NCBI RefSeq assembly: GCF_014695395.1
Contig: NZ_JACJOF010000025.1
Location: 62,001-126,000 of the forward strand
Direction of reading: 5' to 3'
DNA length: 64,000 nucleotides
Source of the DNA: Nodosilinea sp. FACHB-131
GTDB taxonomy: Bacteria; Cyanobacteriota; Cyanobacteriia; Phormidesmidales; Phormidesmidaceae
Made by a program: the position numbers and the translations under genes. The notes under the pieces are model-generated. The model was not told the DNA's origin, ran no database searches, and saw only the letters and a program-made list of their open reading frames with translations. Positions 18,689 to 62,460 of the stretch are shown one piece after another; the first letter of the stretch is position 1, and every line of letters begins with the position of its first letter.

Positions 18689-21600
18689 TTACTCTGCTTG
18701 GGGTTGGCCCCGATCGAACTGCTGGGTTTCTAGCACCCCTTCCGCCTGGTTGGCGATCTGCCGCAGGCCATCTAGCATGTCGGCCTTAGCTGTGGCCCAC
18801 AGCCCCCGCTGGTTGGCTTCGAGCAGGCGCTCGGCCATATCCCGCAGCGCCCAAGGGTTTGAGGTTTGCACAAAGGCCTGCACCGCTGGATCGAGCAGGT
18901 AGGCCTGGGCCACGCCTTCATACATATGGTCGGCGACGCAGTGGGCCGTGGCATCGTAGGCGAATAGGTAATCGACGGTGGCGGCCATCTCAAAGGCCCC
19001 CTTATAGCCGTGGCGCATGACGCCCTCGATCCACTTGGGGTTGACCACGCGGGAGCGGTAGACCTTGGCAATTTCGGCGTCGAGCGATCGCACCTTGGGC
19101 TTGGCCGTCACCGCGTTGTCGCCAAAGTAAGTGGCGGGCTGCTGCCCCTGGAGAGTTCTGGCAGCTACCGTCATGCCCCCCTGAAATTGGTAGTAGTCGT
19201 CGGAGTCGAGCAGGTCGTGCTCGCGGTTGTCCTGGTTGTGGAGCACCACTTGCAGATGCTTGAGCCGCTGCTCAAAGGCTTCGGGCATGGCGTGGCCTTG
19301 GGCGTCGCGACCGTAGGCGTAGCCGCTCCAGTTTAGGTAGGCACGGGCCAGGTCTTCGTCGCTAGTCCAGTTTTGCGATTCGATCAGCCCCTGCAAGCCA
19401 GCCCCATAGGCTCCTGGCTTAGAGCCAAAGATGCGGTAGCGCGATCGCAGCTCCGCCTGCTCTGCCGTCAGCCCCTGCCGCTGCCATTCGGCACTCTCCT
19501 GCTGCGATCGCGCCGCTAGGGGATTTTGCTCTGGCGGTTCATCTAAAGCCGCCACCGCCACTACGGCCTGGTCTACCAGGTCAATCAGATTGGGGAAAGC
19601 ATCGCGAAAGAAGCCCGAAATCCGCAGGGTGACATCGACGCGGGGCCGCCCGAGCGCCGACAGTGGCAGCACCTCAAAATCGACCACTCGCCGCGAGGGG
19701 CCATCCCACACCGGGCGCACCCCCATCAGGGCCAGGGCTTCAGCAATGTCATCCCCGCCGGTGCGCATGGTGGAGGTGCCCCACACCGACAGGCCCAGGG
19801 TTTGGGGATAGTCGCCGTGATCCTGGGTGTACTGCTCCACCAGCACTTCCGCCGCCCGCCGCCCCACATCCCAGGCGCTCTCGGTGGGAATGGCACGAAT
19901 ATCTACCGAGAAGAAATTGCGCCCGGTGGGCAGCACGTCGGGGCGATTGCGGGTGGGGGCTCCAGCCGGGCCGCTGGGCACGTAGCGCCCGTCGAGGCCA
20001 GCCAGCAAATTGGCGATCTCGTCGGTGGTGCGGGTCAGGGCGGGGATGAGGCTGTGCTGAATCCAGTGGAGTTCAGTGGCGAGGACTGTCCCCCTCTCCC
20101 CCAACTCCTCTTCCCTCTCCCCCAGCCCCTCTCCCTGGGGGAGAGGGGAGCTAGAACGTCCTCCGGTTCCCTCTCCCCGAGGGAGAGGGCTAGGGAGAGG
20201 GCGGCTCGGGGCAGCAACTTGTGGCAATAACTCCTCCACCAAACGCGACGCTTCCTCTTCCAAGGCCTCGACAACGTCTCCAGCGATGCGGCAGGTGGAG
20301 AGGTGAGGGGACGAGGGGATGAAGGGTTCACCTAGATCAACAGTGAGGGGATCGATGTCGAGACTCCAGGATTCTGCGATCGCTCGCGTTAATCCCTGTC
20401 GGCCAGGACCAGGGTGGCGGGCGATCGCCACAATCAAGTCCCGCAGTTGCTGGCCATCGGGGCATTGCCCGAAGATATGTAGCCCGTCGCGAATCTGGGC
20501 TTCCTTGAGGTCGCAAAGATAGGTGTCGAGGGTCGGGAGGAGGGTGGGGATGGGTGGGTGGGTAGATGGGTGGATGGGTGGATGGGTAGGGGAAATTTCG
20601 GTTAGGAGGCTAGTTTCAGTGAGCAGGGTGAGGATGCGATCGCCAATCAGCGCCAACCGGCTCGGATCTAAACTTTGGGCTTCGTAGTATTCGTCCACCA
20701 AACCTTCCAGCTTTTCGAGGGGGCCATAGAGTTCGGCGCGGGTCAGCGGTGGAGTGAGGTGGTCAAGAATGACCGCCTGGGCGCGCCGCTTCGCCTGAGA
20801 ACCTTCGCCGGGGTCGTTGACGATAAACGGGTACAGGTGAGGCATGGGGCCAAACATGGCCTCGGGGTAGCAGTCCTGGGATAAGCCAACGCCCTTGCCA
20901 GGCAGCCATTCCAAATTGCCGTGCTTGCCCAGGTGAACGATCGCCTGAGCCCCAAAGCTATGCCTTAGCCAGAGATAAAAGGCCAGGTAGTCGTGGGTCG
21001 GCTCCAGATCGGGCGAGTGGTAGTTGAGGGAGGGGTCGAGGTCATAGCCCCGGCTGGGCTGAACGCCGATGAAAATGTTGCCGAGCTGGATGCCGGGAAT
21101 GGGGAAGGGGGCGGGTAAGGTGTGGGAAGTAGGGGGTAGAGAGTTTTGAATTTTGAATTTTGAATTTTGAATTTTCCCCTCATCTCTTCCATCTTCCCCA
21201 TCTCCCGCAGGCATGCCCCAACGATCGCTCATACCAACACGCACCGCTTCCGGCAAAGTCTCAAAATGCTGACGGTAATCAGCCAAGGACAGGAACTGGC
21301 GAACTTCCCGAAAATCGCGGCCTTCGGGGTCATTAGTTACCCCTGCGGTGAGCTGGCGAATTAGGTCGTCGCCATTGATGGGAATGTCGCCCAGGGTGTA
21401 GCCCGCCGCCTTGAGGGCGTGGAGAACTTCGATCGCACTCTGAGGCGTGTTTAAACCAACTCCATTCGCCAAACGGCCATCGCGGTTGGGGTAGTTGGCG
21501 AGAATCATGGCGATGCGGCGATCGCCTGCCGGGGTGCGGCGCAGGGTAGCCCAACGGGCAGCTAGGTCAACGACAAAGGCGATGCGATCGCCCACCGGCT

Positions 21601-22690
21601 CGTAGGTGACCACATCGGTTTCTAACGCTTCACTGCGCTGGTTGACCGATTTAAACGAAACAGCGCGGGTGATGATGCGCCCATCCACCTCGGGCAGGGC
21701 CACATTCATCGCAATATCGCGGGGCGAGAGGCCCAGGCTCTGGCTTTCCCATGCGGCTTTGGTACCACCGCTAAGAATCACTTGCAGCACCGGCACGTCC
21801 AGGGTTTCCCACAGATCTAAATTGGGCGTGGCACCGTCCAGTTTCGCCACCGAAAAGCTGGTAGTATTCAGCAGCACGTCAATGCCCTGGCCCTCTTTAG
21901 GCCTAAGCAGAGCAACCAAATCCTTCTGCACCTCAGGATCTTGCAGCGACGACACAAACACAGGCACCGGACGCAGATGCCGTTGCACCAAGGCCGCACA
22001 CAGCGCGTCAATGGGCGCAGTGTTGCCCGCCAAGTAGTGAGCCCGGTAGAAGATCAAGCCGATTTTGGCCGTTGTCTGCTCCAGTTCCCCTCTCCCCACA
22101 GGAGAGGGGCTAGGGGAGAGGGAGCCGGGGTCCAGTTCTTGCTGACCAGTGGGATATACCCCAACTTTGGGAATTTCCTGGGGCTCGGGGGGGTGGTAGG
22201 CGGTGTGGAGAAGGCGATCGCACACCCACATCAACCCGTTCGCCATATTCTCGACGCCGCCTTCGTTGAGGTAGCGCCACAGCTGGTTGGCCACCGTCAG
22301 CGGCACGGTGGAATGGCTGATTAGATCGGGGGCGGGGCGATCGTCGCCGGGCAGCACAATCAGGGCAGCCCCGGTTTCGGTAGCCATATCCCTGACGACT
22401 TCCAGTCCGTAGGGCCAGTAGGCGCGACCCCCCAGCAGCCGCACCACGATGAGTTGGGCGTGGCGCAGCACATCGTCAGCGTAGGTGTCGATCGCCAACT
22501 GCTGTTGAAGCTGAAGCAGGTTGGCCACTCGCAGGGCCGGAAAATCGACCGGAAAACTGGCCCGAGCCAGGCTCTGAATTTCAGTGTCAGCGGCGGTGAG
22601 AAACACCAGCGGTGCTGGGGTCTGCTCGACAAAAATGACGCCCTCAGTATCCGGCGTCCAGCCGCCGGGGGTAGCGGCTAAGCGATGCAT
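18689..22690 (-). CDS. cobN: Cobaltochelatase CobN subunit with in-frame repeat insertions
   Basis: 1333 residues, large subunit of the aerobic cobaltochelatase (CobN/ChlH family). It inserts Co2+ into hydrogenobyrinate a,c-diamide in cobalamin synthesis, or acts as a CobN-like chelatase in cyanobacteria. Family marks are LGKHGNLEWLPGK, GLSQDCYPEAMFGPMPHLYPFIVNDPGEG, LSVWGTSTMRTGGDDIAEALA, DVTLRISGFFRDAFPNLI, KWIEGVMRHGYKGAFEMAAT and VDYLFAYDATAHCV. It is odd in carrying four low-complexity insertions that match interspersed repeats in this genome: near residues 187-204, 498-525, 700-715 and 829-868 (listed as repeats). All keep the frame and lie in variable surface loops. No AAA+ or CobT-like partner is adjacent. 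No clear cobalamin riboswitch is seen upstream. Confidence 0.93.
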   Translation of the reverse strand: MHRLAATPGGWTPDTEGVIFVEQTPAPLVFLTAADTEIQSLARASFPVDFPALRVANLLQLQQQLAIDTYADDVLRHAQLIVVRLLGGRAYWPYGLEVVRDMATETGAALIVLPGDDRPAPDLISHSTVPLTVANQLWRYLNEGGVENMANGLMWVCDRLLHTAYHPPEPQEIPKVGVYPTGQQELDPGSLSPSPSPVGRGELEQTTAKIGLIFYRAHYLAGNTAPIDALCAALVQRHLRPVPVFVSSLQDPEVQKDLVALLRPKEGQGIDVLLNTTSFSVAKLDGATPNLDLWETLDVPVLQVILSGGTKAAWESQSLGLSPRDIAMNVALPEVDGRIITRAVSFKSVNQRSEALETDVVTYEPVGDRIAFVVDLAARWATLRRTPAGDRRIAMILANYPNRDGRLANGVGLNTPQSAIEVLHALKAAGYTLGDIPINGDDLIRQLTAGVTNDPEGRDFREVRQFLSLADYRQHFETLPEAVRVGMSDRWGMPAGDGEDGRDEGKIQNSKFKIQNSLPPTSHTLPAPFPIPGIQLGNIFIGVQPSRGYDLDPSLNYHSPDLEPTHDYLAFYLWLRHSFGAQAIVHLGKHGNLEWLPGKGVGLSQDCYPEAMFGPMPHLYPFIVNDPGEGSQAKRRAQAVILDHLTPPLTRAELYGPLEKLEGLVDEYYEAQSLDPSRLALIGDRILTLLTETSLLTEISPTHPPIHPSTHPPIPTLLPTLDTYLCDLKEAQIRDGLHIFGQCPDGQQLRDLIVAIARHPGPGRQGLTRAIAESWSLDIDPLTVDLGEPFIPSSPHLSTCRIAGDVVEALEEEASRLVEELLPQVAAPSRPLPSPLPRGEGTGGRSSSPLPQGEGLGEREEELGERGTVLATELHWIQHSLIPALTRTTDEIANLLAGLDGRYVPSGPAGAPTRNRPDVLPTGRNFFSVDIRAIPTESAWDVGRRAAEVLVEQYTQDHGDYPQTLGLSVWGTSTMRTGGDDIAEALALMGVRPVWDGPSRRVVDFEVLPLSALGRPRVDVTLRISGFFRDAFPNLIDLVDQAVVAVAALDEPPEQNPLAARSQQESAEWQRQGLTAEQAELRSRYRIFGSKPGAYGAGLQGLIESQNWTSDEDLARAYLNWSGYAYGRDAQGHAMPEAFEQRLKHLQVVLHNQDNREHDLLDSDDYYQFQGGMTVAARTLQGQQPATYFGDNAVTAKPKVRSLDAEIAKVYRSRVVNPKWIEGVMRHGYKGAFEMAATVDYLFAYDATAHCVADHMYEGVAQAYLLDPAVQAFVQTSNPWALRDMAERLLEANQRGLWATAKADMLDGLRQIANQAEGVLETQQFDRGQPQAE
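20090..20205. repeat. cccctctcccc/ggggagaggg repeat inserted in cobN
   Basis: Alternating ccctctcccc and ggggagaggg blocks form an imperfect palindrome inside cobN. Translated, it gives a Pro/Ser/Arg/Gly-rich loop (LPSPLPRGEG..., SSPLPQGEGLGE) with no counterpart in conserved CobN motifs. The same element recurs at 22082-22130. Confidence 0.75.
20541..20592. repeat. Heptamer (tgggtgg/tgggtag) repeat inserted in cobN
   Basis: About seven copies of a degenerate heptamer (gggtgggtggg...agatgggtggatggg) are read on the minus strand as PTHPPIHPSTHPPIP. The same heptamer occurs between genes near 39293, 42498, 47075, 59762 and 60226 and inside the ABC transporter at 57767-59758. Confidence 0.8.
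21138..21178. repeat. ttgaatt tandem repeat inserted in cobN
   Basis: At least four copies of the 7-base unit ttgaatt lie in cobN and are read as [12 protein letters not shown]. The same unit, inverted (aattcaa), lies just before the FecE gene at 49766-49797. Confidence 0.8.
22082..22130. repeat. cccctctcccc repeat inserted in cobN, second copy
   Basis: cccctctcccc followed by ggagaggggc and ggggagaggg makes a palindromic element encoding SLSPSPSPVGRGELE near residue 190 of CobN. It is the same family as 20090-20205. Confidence 0.7.
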
Positions 22691-26056: not shown

Positions 26057-26250
26057 ACTGGCTTGCCGTAAGAACATGAAAACGACGAAGGCACCCACCG
26101 CTGGCCCAAGGTAAAGCCAATAGTGGAGTATTTTCCTTAATTTAGTCTATACCTTTGTTAACAGTTGTTTACATAACTCTAATGTTTCTCTGCCCAGGGG
26201 GCAAGGGTACTTAGCTGTCAGATCGGACAGTGCTAGCTAATTTGAAGGCT

Positions 26251-26310
26251 TGGGTGCAGGGTGTAAGGTTTAAGGCAGATTCACACCGTAAACCCTATAC
26301 CCTGTACCCA
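26251..26310. repeat. Interspersed gggtgtagg-type inverted repeat
   Basis: The 22-base arms at 26251-26272 and 26289-26310 are complementary except for about three positions and enclose a 16-base centre. The element lies between the TPM gene and the histidine kinase. Relatives occur at 28515, 47023 and 57902. Confidence 0.65.
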
Positions 26311-26339
26311 AAACCCCTTCTAAAGCCTGTAACTTTCGA

Positions 26340-28514: not shown

Positions 28515-28589
28515 TTGGGGTTCAGGGTTTAAGGTCTCAGGTTCAAGGCAGGTCGTGAACCCTAGGCCCCAAACCCTAGACCTTGCCCC
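28515..28589. repeat. Interspersed gggttcaggg-type inverted repeat
   Basis: G-rich left half (ttggggttcagggtttaagg) and C-rich right half (gaaccctaggccccaaaccc) pair imperfectly. The element lies in the divergent promoter region between the response regulator and the repeat protein, so it could affect expression of either. Confidence 0.55.
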
Positions 28590-28740
28590 CTCACTGGCCT
28601 GTCACTTTTAACTTAACCAAACTACTAGCACTCCCAGCGGGTCGCAAAAATGACAAAGCTGTAATTTGGCGGCCATGGTTGTGCCATAGTGCCCAGGCTT
28701 AATAAAAATCGTCAACCTAAACCACCGGAGCAAATCATCC

Positions 28741-29304
28741 ATGGTAATTCATCGTTCACTGCTGACCGCTGGCCTGGCCGCTGCCCTGGTGGGAGGCCTG
28801 GGTCTGGCCGCCTTTAGCCAAACTACCCAGGGCCAACCTCCGCAGCCCGCAGCTACTCCGACCGAGCCCGCCCAGCGGCCCGAGGGCCAGGGTCGAGGTC
28901 ACGGGGAAGGGTTGGCCAACGCTGCCGCTGAGCTGGGCGTTAGCGAAGCCGCCCTCAAGGCCGCCTTGGGCCTGCCTGCCGAGCCACCACCGCGTCCTGA
29001 CTTGGCCGCCGCCGCTACAGAGTTGGGGGTGAGCGAAACTGAGCTACAGGAAGCCCTGCGCAGCGGCAGAGATGGCGATCGCGGCCAAAGACTGGCCACC
29101 GCCGCTACGCAGCTGGGCGTCAGTGAAGCCGCCTTGAAAGAAGCCCTGGGCCTGCCCGCCGAGCCGCCGCCACGCCCTGACCTGGCCGCTGCCGCCACTG
29201 AGCTAGGCGTCAGCGAAACTGACCTACAGGAGGCCCTGCGCAGCAACATGGGCGGAGGCCGAGGGGGTGGATGCGGTCCCGAAGGCGGTGACCCGCCGCA
29301 GTAA
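28741..29304 (+). CDS. Exported protein with ABAB helical repeats
   Basis: 187 residues. Signal peptide (LLTAGLAAALVGGLGLAAFSQ), then a Gln/Pro-rich spacer. Four copies of a helical unit of about 17 residues follow, in the order A-B-A-B: A = AAxELGVSEAALKxALGLPA, B = AAATELGVSETxLQEALRS. The A-B pair is duplicated with high nucleotide identity (about 28985-29085 against 29155-29255), so the duplication is recent. Each A unit ends in AEPPPRPDL. The C-terminus is GGGRGGGCGPEGG, with one Cys. I do not recognise a characterised family; ELGVSEAAL-type repeats are seen in other exported proteins. It is divergent from the two-component operon and has its own terminator, so it may be its regulated output. 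Confidence 0.6.
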   Translation: MVIHRSLLTAGLAAALVGGLGLAAFSQTTQGQPPQPAATPTEPAQRPEGQGRGHGEGLANAAAELGVSEAALKAALGLPAEPPPRPDLAAAATELGVSETELQEALRSGRDGDRGQRLATAATQLGVSEAALKEALGLPAEPPPRPDLAAAATELGVSETDLQEALRSNMGGGRGGGCGPEGGDPPQ

Positions 29305-44514: not shown

Positions 44515-46071
44515 CTACTCCCCAGTCGGTGCAGCCGACGGAGCCGGCTCCGCCGCTGGCGGAGGACTAGCCGGGGGTGGTGAGGGTGGTGCAACTGGCG
44601 CGGGTGGCGGAGCCGCCGGAGCAGCCGGAACGGGGGCTGGAGGAGCACTGGGCGCAGGTGGAGGGGTAGGCGACTGCACCGGAGGCGGGCTCGCGGGTGC
44701 TGGCTCTGGCTCTACAGGCTCTGGCTTCGCTGGTTCCGGCTCCGCTGGTTCTGCCGGTTCTGCCTCTGCGGGCTCTGTCTCTACGGGTTCTGGCTCTGCT
44801 GGCTCTGGTTCTGACGTCGCTGATGGGGTTGGGGTTGGGGCTGGCTCAGCGGCGTCAACAGGTGGAGCCGGCGTGGTCGTTGGTTCGGGGCTCGGCTCAG
44901 TTGCTGCTGTCTCGGGAGTGGGGGTGGCCTCTGGCGGTAGCTCTACCGCCTGGCGATCGCCCCGACGACGGGCATCGCGGTTGCGACGCGACCCTTCAAT
45001 GGTTAGGTCATACTCGATGGGAACGCTGGCGCCGCCGCTGACGGGTTGAAATTGTGAGTTGCGGGCGGCCTGAATGGCAGCCTGGTCGATCGCCGGGTTG
45101 CCACTGGAGCGAGTCAGGGTGACACTGCGAACGCTGCCATCGGGATTGATATCGACGCTGACCATGGGTTGGCCTTCAGCACCAGCATCTAGGGCGCTTT
45201 GAGGATAAGCGGGACGCACGCAGTTTTGACAGGCTACAGTGCGCGACCCCTGGCCCGTGCCACTACCGCTGCCACTGCCACTGCCACTGCCGGTACCGTT
45301 ACCACTGCCACTACCACTGCCGCTGCCCGTGCCACTACCGCTGCCACTGCCGCTACCTGTGCCGCTACCGCTGCCACTGCCACCACTGCCGTTGGAAGGA
45401 GCAGTGGCGACTCCATTGCCGTCTCCAGCAACACCATCTCCAGCAGCAGCTGAGTCAGCGGCGGTCTGAGCTTGTGCATCGCGCAGACGCTGCAAAAAGT
45501 CGCGCAGGTTTTCAGCTTGAGATTCCGTAGACTCAGCAGTTAGAGCTTCTTGCTCTAGGTCTTCTGTTTCTGAGGTTTCTGGCTCAGTCTCTGGTTCTTC
45601 TTCTGAGATTTCTGGCTCAGTTTCTGGCTCTTCTGTTTCTGAGATTTCTGGCTCAGTTTCAGGTTCCTCAACGACTGAATCGGCTTGGGTATTTCGCTCA
45701 GGTTCAGGCTCCGATTCAACCCGCTCTACAGGAGGTGCGACTCGGGCAGGGGCAGGGGGTGCTGTGACCTGAGCTGCCGTAAAGTTGCCGCCGGCACCTC
45801 CGCCTGGTGCGGAGTCATTGACTTCGGTGCTGATTTCAGCGGGCAGGTTTGGGTCGGGAATGGCTTCAGGTGTATCGGGCAGGGGTTCGACGACAACCAG
45901 CTCAATTGGCTCAATGTCATCGGCAGCCAGCCTCTGCCAAAAATCGAGCTGACTGAGACCAAGACCTACCCCATGCACTCCCACGGAACCTAAAATTCCC
46001 CAAAGCAGAATCTTGCGGAGTTTTTGCTGCTCATGCTGGTGTTGTTGACTGCAAATCTCTGAAAGACTCAT
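44515..46071 (-). CDS. tonB: TonB-family energy transducer with extended C-terminal tail
   Basis: 518 residues. Rough order: cytoplasmic N-terminus, one membrane anchor (ILLWGILGSVGVHGVGLGLS, about 22-41), acidic Glu/Pro/Ser region with EEPETEPEISE repeats (100-170), Gly/Ser linker (about 215-270), then the TonB C-terminal domain (about 275-365: PAYPQSALDAGAEGQPMVSV, DGSVRSVTLTRSSGNPAIDQ, AARNSQFQP). It links proton-motive force from ExbB-ExbD to the outer-membrane receptor. It is odd that a tail of about 155 residues rich in Pro/Glu/Ala (PTPETAATEPSPEP..., EPEPVETEPAEAEP) follows a domain that normally ends the protein. It is divergent from exbB. Start ATG 46071. Confidence 0.88.
   Translation of the reverse strand: MSLSEICSQQHQHEQQKLRKILLWGILGSVGVHGVGLGLSQLDFWQRLAADDIEPIELVVVEPLPDTPEAIPDPNLPAEISTEVNDSAPGGGAGGNFTAAQVTAPPAPARVAPPVERVESEPEPERNTQADSVVEEPETEPEISETEEPETEPEISEEEPETEPETSETEDLEQEALTAESTESQAENLRDFLQRLRDAQAQTAADSAAAGDGVAGDGNGVATAPSNGSGGSGSGSGTGSGSGSGSGTGSGSGSGSGNGTGSGSGSGSGSGTGQGSRTVACQNCVRPAYPQSALDAGAEGQPMVSVDINPDGSVRSVTLTRSSGNPAIDQAAIQAARNSQFQPVSGGASVPIEYDLTIEGSRRNRDARRRGDRQAVELPPEATPTPETAATEPSPEPTTTPAPPVDAAEPAPTPTPSATSEPEPAEPEPVETEPAEAEPAEPAEPEPAKPEPVEPEPAPASPPPVQSPTPPPAPSAPPAPVPAAPAAPPPAPVAPPSPPPASPPPAAEPAPSAAPTGE
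45246..45390. repeat. Gly-Ser-coding tandem repeat in tonB
   Basis: Repeats of the six-base unit ccactg/cctgcc encode the GSGSGTGSG linker of TonB on the minus strand. Such a tract is prone to length change by slippage without frameshift. Confidence 0.75.
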
Positions 46072-57313: not shown

Positions 57314-57742
57314 TTACAGGACTAAAACCAAGGTTCCAGCTAACACCAACGCCGTGCCCACAACAACCTGAATCGTTAACGGTTCACCCAAAAACCAAAC
57401 AGACAGCAATAGTACCAAAATCAACCCAGACTTATCTACAGGCGCGACTAAAGAGGCATTGCCAAGCTGTAGGGCCCTAAAGTAGCAAAGCCATGACAGT
57501 CCGGTCGCTATTCCCGACAGTACCAAAAACACAAGCGTCCTAGGCGAGAGCGTCAACAGCCCCTGCAATTGCCCATCCGCCCAGACTATGCCCCATGCGA
57601 GCGCCAAAATGACCACTGTACGAATTGCCGTGGCCAAATTAGAGTTGATGTTTTCAACGCCAATTTTCGAAAAGATGGTGGTCAATGCGGCAAAAAAAGC
57701 AGAAAGCAGGGCAAAAATCCACCAAGCTTTTTCGTCGGCCAT
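57314..57742 (-). CDS. EamA-family transporter, single-domain
   Basis: 142 residues, five membrane helices, one EamA/DMT half: KAWWIFALLSAFFAALTTIF, NSNLATAIRTVVILALAWGI, FLVLSGIATGLSWLCYFRAL, VAPVDKSGLILVLLLSVWFL, VVGTALVLAGTLVLVL. Small EamA proteins of about 140 residues work as homodimers. Convergent with the MFS gene (45 bases) and 24 bases upstream of the ABC gene's end in the same direction. Substrate unknown. Confidence 0.88.
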   Translation of the reverse strand: MADEKAWWIFALLSAFFAALTTIFSKIGVENINSNLATAIRTVVILALAWGIVWADGQLQGLLTLSPRTLVFLVLSGIATGLSWLCYFRALQLGNASLVAPVDKSGLILVLLLSVWFLGEPLTIQVVVGTALVLAGTLVLVL

Positions 57743-57766: not shown

Positions 57767-59758
57767 CTACGTTACAGACTCAATGCGTCCATTCTCTAAA
57801 AGCAGAATTTGATCAGCGCGCTTGAGTACCGCAGGGCGATGGGAGACGACGAGGCAGGTGGGTGGATGGGTGGATGGGTAGGCGGGTGGATGGGTAGGCG
57901 GGTTTTGGGTATCAGGTGTTGGGTACTGGGTATTGGGTTTTGCCTTATACCTTGTACCTTGCACCCTATACCGTTCACCCCCCGCCTCTTCTCTATTCTC
58001 AAATAACTGCTCCCAAAGACGTTGCTCGGTTTCGACATCGAGGGCGCTGGAGAGGTCGTCGAACACCATCAGGGCGGGCTGGCGCAGCAGCATGCGGGCG
58101 GCGGCGGTCCGTTGTTTTTGCCCCCCAGAAAGGCGAAAGCCGCGCGTGCCGATTAGGGTCTCTAGCCCCTCGGGCATTTGGGCGAGATCGCGATCGAAGA
58201 CGGCGGTGGCGATCGCTCGCTCAAACTGTTCTGGGCCAACGGCATCCCCTAGCCCCAGCAGCAGATTCTCCCGCAGTGAGGCGCTGAAAAGTTGGGGAAT
58301 CTGCGGCGTGTAGGCGGCTCGCGGCGGCACCAAAAAATTTGCTGGGTCGAGAATCGGCTGACTATTCCAATACAGCGCGCCAGATTGCTTGGGCAGCAGG
58401 CCCAACAGCACCCGCAACAGAGTGGTTTTGCCCGCACCCACCCGCCCGGTGATCACCGTCAAACTGCCCTGGGTGAGGGTAAAACTGATGTCGCTGATGC
58501 CACCACCGCCTGGATAGTGGTAGGTCAACCCTTCGACCCGTAGCTCGTTAAGGGGTTCGGATGCGATCGCCGTCGTCATCGATGGCAGCACAGGTTGTGA
58601 GCTCAGGAGGGGTTTGAGGTAGAGGGGGTGGGGGTGGGTAAGAGGGTGAGGGGTGGATAGGTGGATGAGTGGATGGGTAGGTGGGTTGGTGGGTTGGTGG
58701 GTTGGTGGGTTCGGTTCGGTTATTTCATGGGTGCTGGTCTCGCCTACGCTCCCACGCGCCCACCCACCTACGCTCCCACGCTCCCACGCGCCCACCAACT
58801 TCCCCATGCGCTCAAAAGAGACCTCACTCTGCTTAATGGTGGCGATAAAGCCGCCGAGGAAGGCGAGAAAGTAGGTGACAAACGATAAGTAATAGACAAA
58901 CAGGGCAAAGTCGCCCACGGTGAGGTCGCCTTGGGCACCGAGGCTTTGGGAGGCGACCAGCAAGATTAGCCCGGTGCCGATGCTGACGATATTCTCAAAG
59001 CCGGAGTTGAGCACGGCGGTGAAGACCTGGTCGCGCACCATCAGATCGCGGCGGCGATCGCACCTTTTCCGCAATTCCTCCAGCATTTGGGCCTCGGCCC
59101 CGGCCACCTTCACCGCTTGCACGGCGGTAAACAATTCGCCAATCAGCCCAGTGACCTGCTGAGTAGCATGGCGGCTGGCGCGGCGGTAGCGTTTGAGGCG
59201 GTGCTCGGCCTGGTGGGCCAAGAGGGCGATCGCGCACAGCGGCAAAAATACCAGTAGCGTCATCGTCGGGTTGACGCTGATCAGCAGCGCCACGGAGCCC
59301 ACGGCAAACACCCCAGCGCCAAAGATCTCGTTGGTGCCCACCACCACATCCTCAATCTGCGCTGCATCGTCACGAAAGTAGCTGAGAATTTCACCGGGGG
59401 AAGCATTTTGGCCGTCGGCCCCACCCGTCGCCAGCTCGGCCCCAGGACGCTTGAGCAGTTCGTGCAGCAGATTGTGTCGCACCAGGCCACTGATCAAAAA
59501 TCGGTGCTGAGTCTTGGTAATGCGCCCGATAAAAATTGCCACCACCCGCGCCAGCCCCACCGCTAGCAGCAGCCCAATCCACACCCAGGGCGAACTGCTA
59601 AGGCGAGACTCCCTAGTGAGGGTGTCAAAAAATTCGCGAATGATCAGCCCTGGCACCGCTGGCAGGCCGAGAATGAACAGCCACAGCAGCGTATCGACCC
59701 AGTAGAGCCGCTGGGCGTAGCGGATGAGCTGCCAGAGGAGGTGGGTGATGGGGGGCAT
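57767..59758 (-). CDS. ABC exporter (fused membrane and ATPase domains) with repeat insertions
   Basis: 663 residues. Residues about 20-320 are a six-helix exporter membrane domain (LFILGLPAVPGLIIREFFDT, VGLARVVAIFIGRITKTQHR). The ATPase domain follows (about 405-663) with VITGRVGAGKTTLLRVLLGL, YTPQIPQLFSASLRENLLLG, LSGGQKQRTAAARMLL, LMVFDDLSSALDVETE and the H-loop LVVSHRPAVLKRAD. Walker B has Asp-Asp instead of Asp-Glu. Two low-complexity insertions match interspersed repeats: one between the domains (about 323-390) and one between the D-loop and H-loop (about 593-630), each still in frame. It resembles multidrug/lipid exporters; the substrate is unknown. Confidence 0.88.
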   Translation of the reverse strand: MPPITHLLWQLIRYAQRLYWVDTLLWLFILGLPAVPGLIIREFFDTLTRESRLSSSPWVWIGLLLAVGLARVVAIFIGRITKTQHRFLISGLVRHNLLHELLKRPGAELATGGADGQNASPGEILSYFRDDAAQIEDVVVGTNEIFGAGVFAVGSVALLISVNPTMTLLVFLPLCAIALLAHQAEHRLKRYRRASRHATQQVTGLIGELFTAVQAVKVAGAEAQMLEELRKRCDRRRDLMVRDQVFTAVLNSGFENIVSIGTGLILLVASQSLGAQGDLTVGDFALFVYYLSFVTYFLAFLGGFIATIKQSEVSFERMGKLVGAWERGSVGGWARGSVGETSTHEITEPNPPTHQPTNPPTHPLIHLSTPHPLTHPHPLYLKPLLSSQPVLPSMTTAIASEPLNELRVEGLTYHYPGGGGISDISFTLTQGSLTVITGRVGAGKTTLLRVLLGLLPKQSGALYWNSQPILDPANFLVPPRAAYTPQIPQLFSASLRENLLLGLGDAVGPEQFERAIATAVFDRDLAQMPEGLETLIGTRGFRLSGGQKQRTAAARMLLRQPALMVFDDLSSALDVETEQRLWEQLFENREEAGGERYRVQGTRYKAKPNTQYPTPDTQNPPTHPPAYPSTHPPTCLVVSHRPAVLKRADQILLLENGRIESVT
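57855..57985. repeat. Heptamer and gggtattgggt repeats inside the ABC ATPase domain
   Basis: tggatgg/tgggtag heptamers (57855-57900) then a gggtatcaggtgttgggtact / tataccttgtaccttgcacc element (57902-57985). Read on the minus strand as a basic/Thr-Pro-rich insert between the D-loop and H-loop of the ATPase. Confidence 0.8.
58630..58800. repeat. Heptamer and gttggtggg repeats between membrane and ATPase domains of the ABC gene
   Basis: Copies of gggtggatagg/gttggtggg (58630-58720) and of ccacgcgcccacc (58740-58800). Read on the minus strand as a Pro/Thr/His-rich linker (NPPTHQPTNPPTHPLIHLST). Confidence 0.8.
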
Positions 59759-59761
59759 AGG

Positions 59762-59805
59762 GGTGTGGGGGTAGATGGGTGGATGGGTAGATGGGTGGAC
59801 GGGAA
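59762..59805. repeat. tagatgggtggatggg heptamer repeat
   Basis: Upstream of the ABC gene and of the four-helix-bundle gene, same heptamer class as in cobN. A short inverse copy (cccatccactcatc) follows at 60226-60262. Confidence 0.75.
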
Positions 59806-59841
59806 TTATTTGGAGGGAGACGGTTAGGGAAAGGGTGGGAG

Positions 59842-60225
59842 ATGACTAGGGAATTGGTGAGGAGTTATCGGGATTTAGAGGTTTATCAGGTGGCTTTTGC
59901 CACAGCTATGGAAGTTTTTGAGGTGTCTAAACGGTTTCCAGTTGAGGAGAGATATTCCTTGACTGACCAAATTCGAAGGTCGTCTCGGTCAGTGTGTGCC
60001 AATTTGGGAGAAGCTTGGCGAAAACGGCGATATCAAGCTGCCTTTGTTGCAAAAATCAGTGACTGCCAGGCTGAAGCAACAGAAACTCAAATTTGGCTAG
60101 AGTTTGCAGTTAAATGCCAATATTTAGATGCCGAATCCGGTAGGAACCTCTATCGCAACTACGCCCAAGTCTTAGGACAACTCGTCAACATGATCAAAAA
60201 CGCTTCCACCTGGACAATCCAATAA
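59842..60225 (+). CDS. Four-helix-bundle protein (23S rRNA intervening-sequence type)
   Basis: 127 residues from the ATG at 59842. Family marks: YRDLEVYQVAFATAMEVFEV, FPVEERYSLTDQIRRSSRSV, ANLGEAWRKRRYQAAFVAKI, ECQ-like DCQAEATETQIWLEFAVKC and the C-terminal LGQLVNMIKN. These proteins were first described inside intervening sequences of 23S rRNA but are widespread as free genes of unknown role. Here flanked on both sides by heptamer repeats. Confidence 0.85.
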   Translation: MTRELVRSYRDLEVYQVAFATAMEVFEVSKRFPVEERYSLTDQIRRSSRSVCANLGEAWRKRRYQAAFVAKISDCQAEATETQIWLEFAVKCQYLDAESGRNLYRNYAQVLGQLVNMIKNASTWTIQ

Positions 60226-60355
60226 CCCATCCACTCATCTACCCATCCACTCTCCCACTCCCCCTCTCCCCCCAGGGCTCCCCGCCGGATCTTTTTGGCT
60301 GCTCAGCGGAGTTTCTGTAGAGAGCGGTTCTTGGGGCTACACCGCTGGGTTAACT
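60226..60355. other. Intergenic with heptamer repeats
   Basis: cccatccactcatctacccatcc at 60226-60250 in segments, then ccctctccccccag, of the two interspersed classes. The remainder shows nothing. Confidence 0.5.
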
Positions 60356-62165: not shown

Positions 62166-62460
62166 AGCTATGCCACTTCGCTATACAGCTGTGCCACTTT
62201 GCTATACATCGGCCTGTGCAAGCTAAACAGCTGTGCCACTTTGCTATACATCGGCCTGTGTAAGCTAAACAGCTGTGCCACTTCGCTATACATCGGCCTG
62301 TGTAAGCTAAACAGCTGTGCCACTTCGCTATACATTGGCCTGTGTAAGCTAAACAGCTGTGCCACTTCGCTATACATCGGCCTGTGTAAGCTAAACAGCT
62401 GTGCCACTTCGCTATACATTGGCCTGTGTAAGCTAAACAGTTGTGCCAGTTTGCTTTACG
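62166..62460. repeat. 42-bp tandem repeat array, six full units
   Basis: Full units begin at 62187, 62229, 62271, 62313, 62355 and 62397, with a 21-base half unit before (62166-62186) and a decayed unit after (from 62439). Units differ at two or three positions (cttc/cttt, atcgg/attgg, tgtgc/tgtgt). Because 42 is a multiple of three, frames stay open on both strands (14-residue periods). No spacers, so not CRISPR. These open frames are not called as genes. Confidence 0.9.

Follow-up and report, generated by a model that had tools for sequence, protein, structure and literature searches.

Dispersed 7- and 8-nt repeats at two segments of a Nodosilinea ABC exporter are most likely absorbed as harmless disordered loops

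Can a conserved ABC exporter take up repetitive DNA inside its ATPase domain and keep working? The question is raised by a gene on the minus strand of the window (the whole stretch of 64,000 nucleotides that was analysed), for which the first-pass annotation had proposed repeat insertions at the domain linker and within the ATPase core. The ORF, the Pfam matches, the repeat arrays and the orthologues bear this proposal out, and the repeat inserts in the exporter gene are confirmed. The features of the locus are:

57767..59758, minus strand: ABC exporter half (TMD and NBD), 663 aa, bearing the inserts (ORF, Pfam, predicted fold)
58634..58795, minus strand: site-1 insert region, residues 322-375, in the TMD-NBD linker (orthologue alignment, mostly 7-17 residues there)
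58743..58799, minus strand: site 1, octamer arm, G-rich on the coding strand
58647..58714, minus strand: site 1, octamer array, C-rich on the coding strand
57863..58000, minus strand: site-2 insert region, residues 587-632 (orthologues mostly 6-15 residues)
57897..57983, minus strand: site 2, heptamer-family hairpin, approximate limits (G-rich arm called at 57941-57974, C-rich partner taken from the fold)
57852..57906, minus strand: site 2, octamer array, C-rich on the coding strand
59761..59806, minus strand: third octamer array, C-rich on the coding strand, ending 2 nt before the exporter start codon

As had been stated, the gene is fully open: its 663 codons hold no internal stop and the frame continues throughout both inserts. 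Pfam places ABC_membrane at residues 38-294 of the protein and ABC_tran at 422-568, and the Pfam matches together with the predicted helices and NBD strands give the layout of a type IV half-transporter, an N-terminal six-helix TMD followed by one NBD. Among the Foldseek matches listed, the top ones are type IV ABC exporters (TM-score by query 0.57-0.67) and the predicted fold is closest to the heterodimeric exporters TmrAB, TAP and TM287/288, which the protein resembles in fold, domain order and motifs; a search of NCBIfam gave no equivalog above cut-off among the matches listed. Conserved in all 40 rows of our alignment are G438..K444-T446, Q486, LSGGQ (543-547), D567, SALD (571-574) and H640, which we take to be the Walker A, Q-loop, LSGGQ, Walker B, D-loop and H-loop motifs. 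Among named relatives, that of Nodosilinea sp. WJT8-NPBG4 (L104) is nearest to the protein, with 93% identity in the alignment. A heterodimer partner beside the exporter gene is unsupported: an adjoining gene for an ABC exporter subunit with all the motifs searched for was absent in 8/8 named relatives inspected, one of which has a short ABC ORF of 308 aa. At 57314-57742 of the window a single EamA domain (142 aa) is encoded as a separate gene.

Site 1 comes after the last transmembrane helix. Site 2 lies between helix 575-594, which follows the D-loop, and strand 634-638, leading to H640. The earlier placement of this second insertion at 57855-57985 is close to the extra residues relative to orthologues (approximately 587-632, or 57863-58000), and it was right in reading two repeat families as fused there: a heptamer-type hairpin comes first, then a C-rich octamer array. 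In two alignments to PDB sequences the long loop that the exporter has between D-loop helix and H-loop strand is absent.

To compare orthologues we used two sets, which overlap and are not independent, at least nine of the named loci being contigs of the first set. For the first set, 63 genomes of the order, this one among them, were searched; matches with an E-value of 1e-100 or lower came from 17, and 16 of these were aligned, L025 being omitted because of frame-shifted pieces. The second, named set held 48 loci, of which 46 were examined (the distant non-cyanobacterial matches L150 and L151 were left out); 45 gave an ORF match, 40 with at least 560 residues. The 40-row alignment consists of 39 named-set ORFs and the window, with L109 omitted since a contig end cuts its gene. 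Most orthologues are without inserts: site 1 measures 7-17 residues in 29/40 rows and 54 in the window, and site 2 measures 6-15 residues in 33/40 rows and 46 in the window. Repeat-free orthologues of equal length at site 2, named in the first-pass annotation as the finding that would speak against its reading, did not appear, as 41 residues or more are reached in the 40 rows only with repeat-coded peptide (window, L104, L105 and L107). Three rows of middle length have no obvious repeats, L110 (26 residues at site 1, 22 at site 2), L117 (21 at site 2) and L119 (33 at site 1); the sites were therefore permissive, or loosely variable, before the repeats arrived.

Both sites are recurrent insertion hotspots in relatives, and within the own-family set they are filled by differing repeat families in differing genomes. 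Within the first set, L009-L013 have a site 1 made of octamers and L014-L016 one made of an AATTCAA-like heptamer; L022-L024 have no repeat insert. A gene tree on 547 columns, with the insert columns removed, places L014 and L015 among the octamer genomes and the octamer-bearing L019/L107 apart from the other octamer genomes, beside L110, which has no repeats; several supports are low (0.06-0.31), so that any count of gains and switches from it would be tentative. L025/L141 is frame-broken near site 2, in an assembly that is low-coverage and broken elsewhere too. We rejected the truncation of L116 as a sign of a broken gene, as its break coincides with an unknown base (an assembly gap) at site 1.

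The exporter was modelled with AlphaFold on the 40-row alignment, at moderate overall confidence (mean pLDDT 75.2, pTM 0.59). pLDDT falls below 50 at residues 106-115, 325-368, 395-398, 486-488 and 593-628, and around site 2 the model runs from helix 575-594 through disorder at 593-628 to strand 634-638 and then the H-loop, with a normal core fold. The structure prediction with and without the insert, which had been proposed as a check, took the repeat-free orthologue L112 as the insert-free form: its model (mean pLDDT 81.5) has the same core helices and strands in the same order, with low-confidence stretches at 107-113, 367-370 and 548-552. The long low-confidence stretches that differ between the two models are the two inserts, both of which are predicted to be disordered in an otherwise normal exporter fold.

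Selection was measured as dN/dS (Nei-Gojobori) against L009. Values are 0.042-0.148 for the TMD (14 comparisons), 0.088-0.192 for the NBD (12 comparisons with finite dS) and 0.04-0.35 for the 23-codon H-loop segment that follows the insert (633-655; again 12 comparisons of this kind). The exporter core on both sides of the inserts is under purifying selection. Within the inserts, where repeat alignments make dN/dS unreliable, site 2 gives 0.68-0.80 among L009, L104 and L010, which share the hairpin (cores approximately 0.08-0.16, on small counts), and 0-0.81 in comparisons on 12-17 codons, while site 1 gives 0.22-0.62 (eight comparisons). Most comparisons show weaker constraint on the inserts than on the core; as the insert values are not uniformly near 1, some constraint on the inserts may exist, at site 1 in particular.

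These data bear on the two outcomes between which the first-pass annotation had not chosen, a harmless bulge or an altered ATPase. That the NBD insert kills or alters ATPase function, in a gene that is decaying, is highly improbable. An insert this large is unusual in this loop, and an Asp at the position following Walker B is typical of degenerate sites, e.g. that of TM287; Asp568 in place of the usual Glu would presumably make for a weak or degenerate ATP site in the exporter. However, D568, directly after the Walker B aspartate D567, is invariant in 40/40 rows, insert or not, and is therefore no consequence of the insert; the motifs and the predicted fold are intact, and purifying selection flanks the insert on both sides. 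The predicted disorder, the intact motifs and the selection past the insert thus favour a bulge.

How can such repeats stay in a coding sequence? A unit of 7 or 8 nt encodes one cyclic peptide, identical in all three frames. ACCCATCC is read as THPPIHPS and its complement as GWVDGWMG, with no stops on either strand; stops are present in AGGTATA and in the complements of AATTCAA and ACCCGCCT. As a stop-free unit reads alike in every frame, the array can sit in any frame, which helps explain the survival of repeats in genes. Each one-unit change shifts the downstream frame, so that only in-frame totals would remain; read in either of the other two frames, the protein would end 6 or 24 residues past site 1, or 20 or 14 residues past site 2.

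The same arithmetic would allow phase variation, in which gain or loss of one unit toggles the exporter off and on. Neither 7 nor 8 is a multiple of 3, slippage at site 2 would cost the H-loop segment, and array lengths differ between species. Against this, the units are degenerate, with approximately 2-5 near-perfect copies in a row, the aligned full-length orthologues of the first set are all in frame, and phase variation was judged unlikely for related heptamers in the account of Rehm et al. (PMC4692102). We regard it as very unlikely here.

To place the inserts among the repeats of the genome (6.16 Mb), we scanned 1,250,526 bases, 20% of it, in which a simple hexamer caller gave 1036 genes with caller-based starts. 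A scan with unit consensuses superseded two others, one for strict 7/8-nt autocorrelation, which gave 11 arrays in 461 kb, and one for simple C/G skew, which gave 174 regions vs 105 in the Markov control. The consensus scan found 60 arrays of the octamer family in the 1.25 Mb; the 787 kb contig C20 holds 25, vs 0 in one third-order Markov copy. Of the 60, called genes contain 21 and a gene edge is straddled by 10; under a stricter rule 19 arrays lie inside genes by 30 nt or more, and 14/45 merged elements are inside. Octamer arrays within 100 bp of each other are ordered G-rich then C-rich 11 times, the reverse 0 times and GG 3 times; C-to-G pairs number one at 200 bp and two at 1000 bp. Relatives give G-then-C 7, the reverse 0, GG 1 and CC 2.

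The heptamer family of the site-2 hairpin has 46 arrays in the 1.25 Mb (31 in C20 vs 0 in one Markov copy), and each of its 15 array pairs has the G-arm first. Only 1/28 of its hairpin elements in the sample is inside a gene, the exporter site-2 copy. The mean number of open frames per element, out of six, is 1.64 for these hairpins vs 3.09 for octamer elements. The AATTCAA family has 11 arrays in the sample, 2 of them in genes. Heptamer hairpins of the site-2 family are also found at 26249-26316 and 28515-28591 of the window, outside called genes.

The octamers were compared with the short G-rich repeats of Rehm et al. 2015, who describe heptamers of sequence GGGNATC in Xanthomonas and GGGGA(C/T)T in Nostoc, 68% intergenic in Nostoc, with the G-rich strand antisense before starts and sense after stops (PMC4692102). 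Counted on the coding strand from -12 to +40 nt, the octamers of this genome are C-rich at starts in 15 cases and G-rich in 0, and at stops G-rich in 19 and C-rich in 4; 16 stretches of relatives give C/G 11/1 at starts and G/C 7/3 at stops. The G-rich strand of the octamers is thus antisense near starts and sense near stops, and the family forms dispersed arrays. As far as the account of Rehm et al. (PMC4692102) extends, the octamers are like its heptamers in being short, G-rich, tandem and genome-wide, in their orientation at gene ends and in a sizeable intragenic share as in Nostoc. In contrast, the Nodosilinea unit is 8 nt and not 7, neither the octamers nor our heptamer have the sequence GGGNATC or GGGGA(C/T)T, hairpin pairs are frequent here and paired repeats are described as few in Nostoc, and the comparison with orthologues documents copies within conserved protein domains here (PMC4692102). 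The octamer family in Nodosilinea-type cyanobacteria thus extends the published gene-end pattern of G-rich repeats.

The exporter is one of several repeat hosts and no special target; it is the NBD position that is unusual. A CobN-type cobaltochelatase gene at 18689-22690 of the window (TIGR02257, 1651 bits) holds three repeat-like inserts in frame, an octamer-coded PTHPPIHPS, a heptamer-coded one and one of PLPRGEG type. Two further ABC exporters carry octamer inserts, at L100 3644-5428 and 16862-19204 (C18, approximately 24-40 kb beyond the window); in the NHLM-type one the insert lies between TMD and NBD, as at site 1, and in the other just before ABC_tran. Further in-frame hosts are PriA, CobA-HemD (between its two domains) and a WD40 protein.

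At the RNA level the two inserts differ. The site-2 insert folds at -50.8 kcal/mol (z -4.73), with 0/200 shuffles as good. Its hairpin is common to three genomes, with a degraded copy in L104 (-38.0 for the segment vs -51.0 and -56.1). These three do not form one group in the gene tree, where the nodes concerned have supports as low as 0.3. At site 1, the insert of the window is a weak hairpin (z -1.37, 19/200 shuffles as good); in the orthologue comparison its z is -1.78 against dinucleotide shuffles and -1.08 against half-wise shuffles. Partial site-1 segments gave no signal (z 0.50 and -0.08), owing to the loss of the G-rich arm from them. Among orthologues, site-1 z is -2 or lower in 9/13 against dinucleotide shuffles and in 8/13 against shuffles within each half, and the L018 insert folds worse than its shuffles (z +1.02). 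A site-1 hairpin is a frequent but not constant feature.

Removal of the repeats at the RNA level, or ribosomal skipping of them, would keep them out of the protein and would suit the site-2 insert, a strong hairpin of a family otherwise extragenic in the sample. An open frame, however, would be needless if the inserts were skipped, and the frame is open through them here and in the other aligned orthologues; in the Rfam search no family reached cut-off (one sub-threshold miRNA match, 26.1 vs 78 bits). Removal or skipping is extremely improbable.

We also considered that the inserts are functional, as a long Pro/Thr/His linker and an NBD loop kept for partner binding, NBD spacing or hairpin-paused translation. 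In keeping with this, all five own-genus-like rows with site-1 repeats (window, L104, L105, L106 and L115) are long, at least at site 1, site-1 RNA structure recurs in orthologues, and site-1 dN/dS is below 1. On the other hand, the peptide is wholly different between relatives (octamer- or heptamer-coded), L022-L024 do without a repeat insert, both inserts are predicted to be disordered, the site-1 fold is weak in the window and worse than its shuffles in L018, and the same repeats occur in unrelated proteins and spacers. We consider a function of the inserts unlikely. Decidedly unlikely is a composite reading, with the two loops as docking sites for successive unrelated hairpins, slow switching of the H-loop and the NBD heptamer hairpin as a captured regulatory RNA; were it true, the C-terminal H-loop segment would be lost and regained, and the captured hairpin would still act in the mRNA.

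Very probably, going by the alignments and the models, dispersed repeats have been absorbed at two permissive exporter segments as translated disordered bulges, with the core working. Cyanobacterial-type repeats, octamer arrays and heptamer hairpins, would have entered two permissive surface segments of this exporter half in the Nodosilinea group and then grown at both, by slippage or by recombination between units. The inserts would be transcribed and translated within the protein, only in-frame lengths would survive since a one-unit change shifts the frame, and the resulting bulges would leave an exporter that is made and keeps working.

Absorption of this kind would be an example of repetitive DNA taken into a conserved ATPase between two catalytic loops, with insert-free orthologues as built-in controls and natural protein pairs available for testing the tolerance of the NBD loop. 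It would also have a simple reason, a stop-free unit of 7-8 nt giving the same harmless peptide in any frame. Rickettsia palindromic elements are hairpin repeats in frame within functional proteins, and their sequence is, by description, unrelated to the exporter repeats; the exporter inserts differ from them in consisting of tandem 7-8 nt units of variable length. A search of the open-licence literature with limited terms gave no paper on octamer inserts inside conserved Nodosilinea or Leptolyngbya proteins.

Related cases have been published. Kaasalainen et al. 2015 describe, in the Nostoc trnL intron, a P6b stem of heptamer repeats that switches class among relatives (PMC4476775). The likeness to that account is one site, a repeat-built stem and a class switch; P6b lies in intron RNA, whereas the exporter inserts are in a coding frame. 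MacGregor 2015 describes direct repeats of the heptamer TAACTGA in Beggiatoaceae and cyanobacteria, most of them a few nt upstream of start codons and some in ORFs (PMC4679880); the unit is another one, and the intragenic cases in that account mainly affect the ends of proteins rather than domain cores. In Nematomorpha mitochondria, coding palindromes (inverted repeats) have arms that reportedly encode conserved regions (PMC6649704). Both they and the exporter inserts are inside coding sequence; unlike the palindromes as that source presents them, the exporter inserts are extra, weakly constrained residues.

Other elements of the window were noted besides. A four-helix-bundle gene at 59791-60225 matches PF05635 (23S_rRNA_IVP, E 1e-27) and bAvd at 21.7 bits, below cut-off; it is flanked by inverted octamer arrays (59768-60270 of the window), like the loop of a large hairpin. 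We rejected this gene as the cargo of the arrays, since the genome has just 2 PF05635 matches, too few to account for the 60 arrays in the 20% of it that was scanned. Longer-period tandem repeats, probably coding, are found at 28913-29238 (90 bp) and 45258-45660 (30 and 33 bp), and 62180-62459 holds a tandem array of a 42-bp unit, with 6.7 copies and 95% matches.
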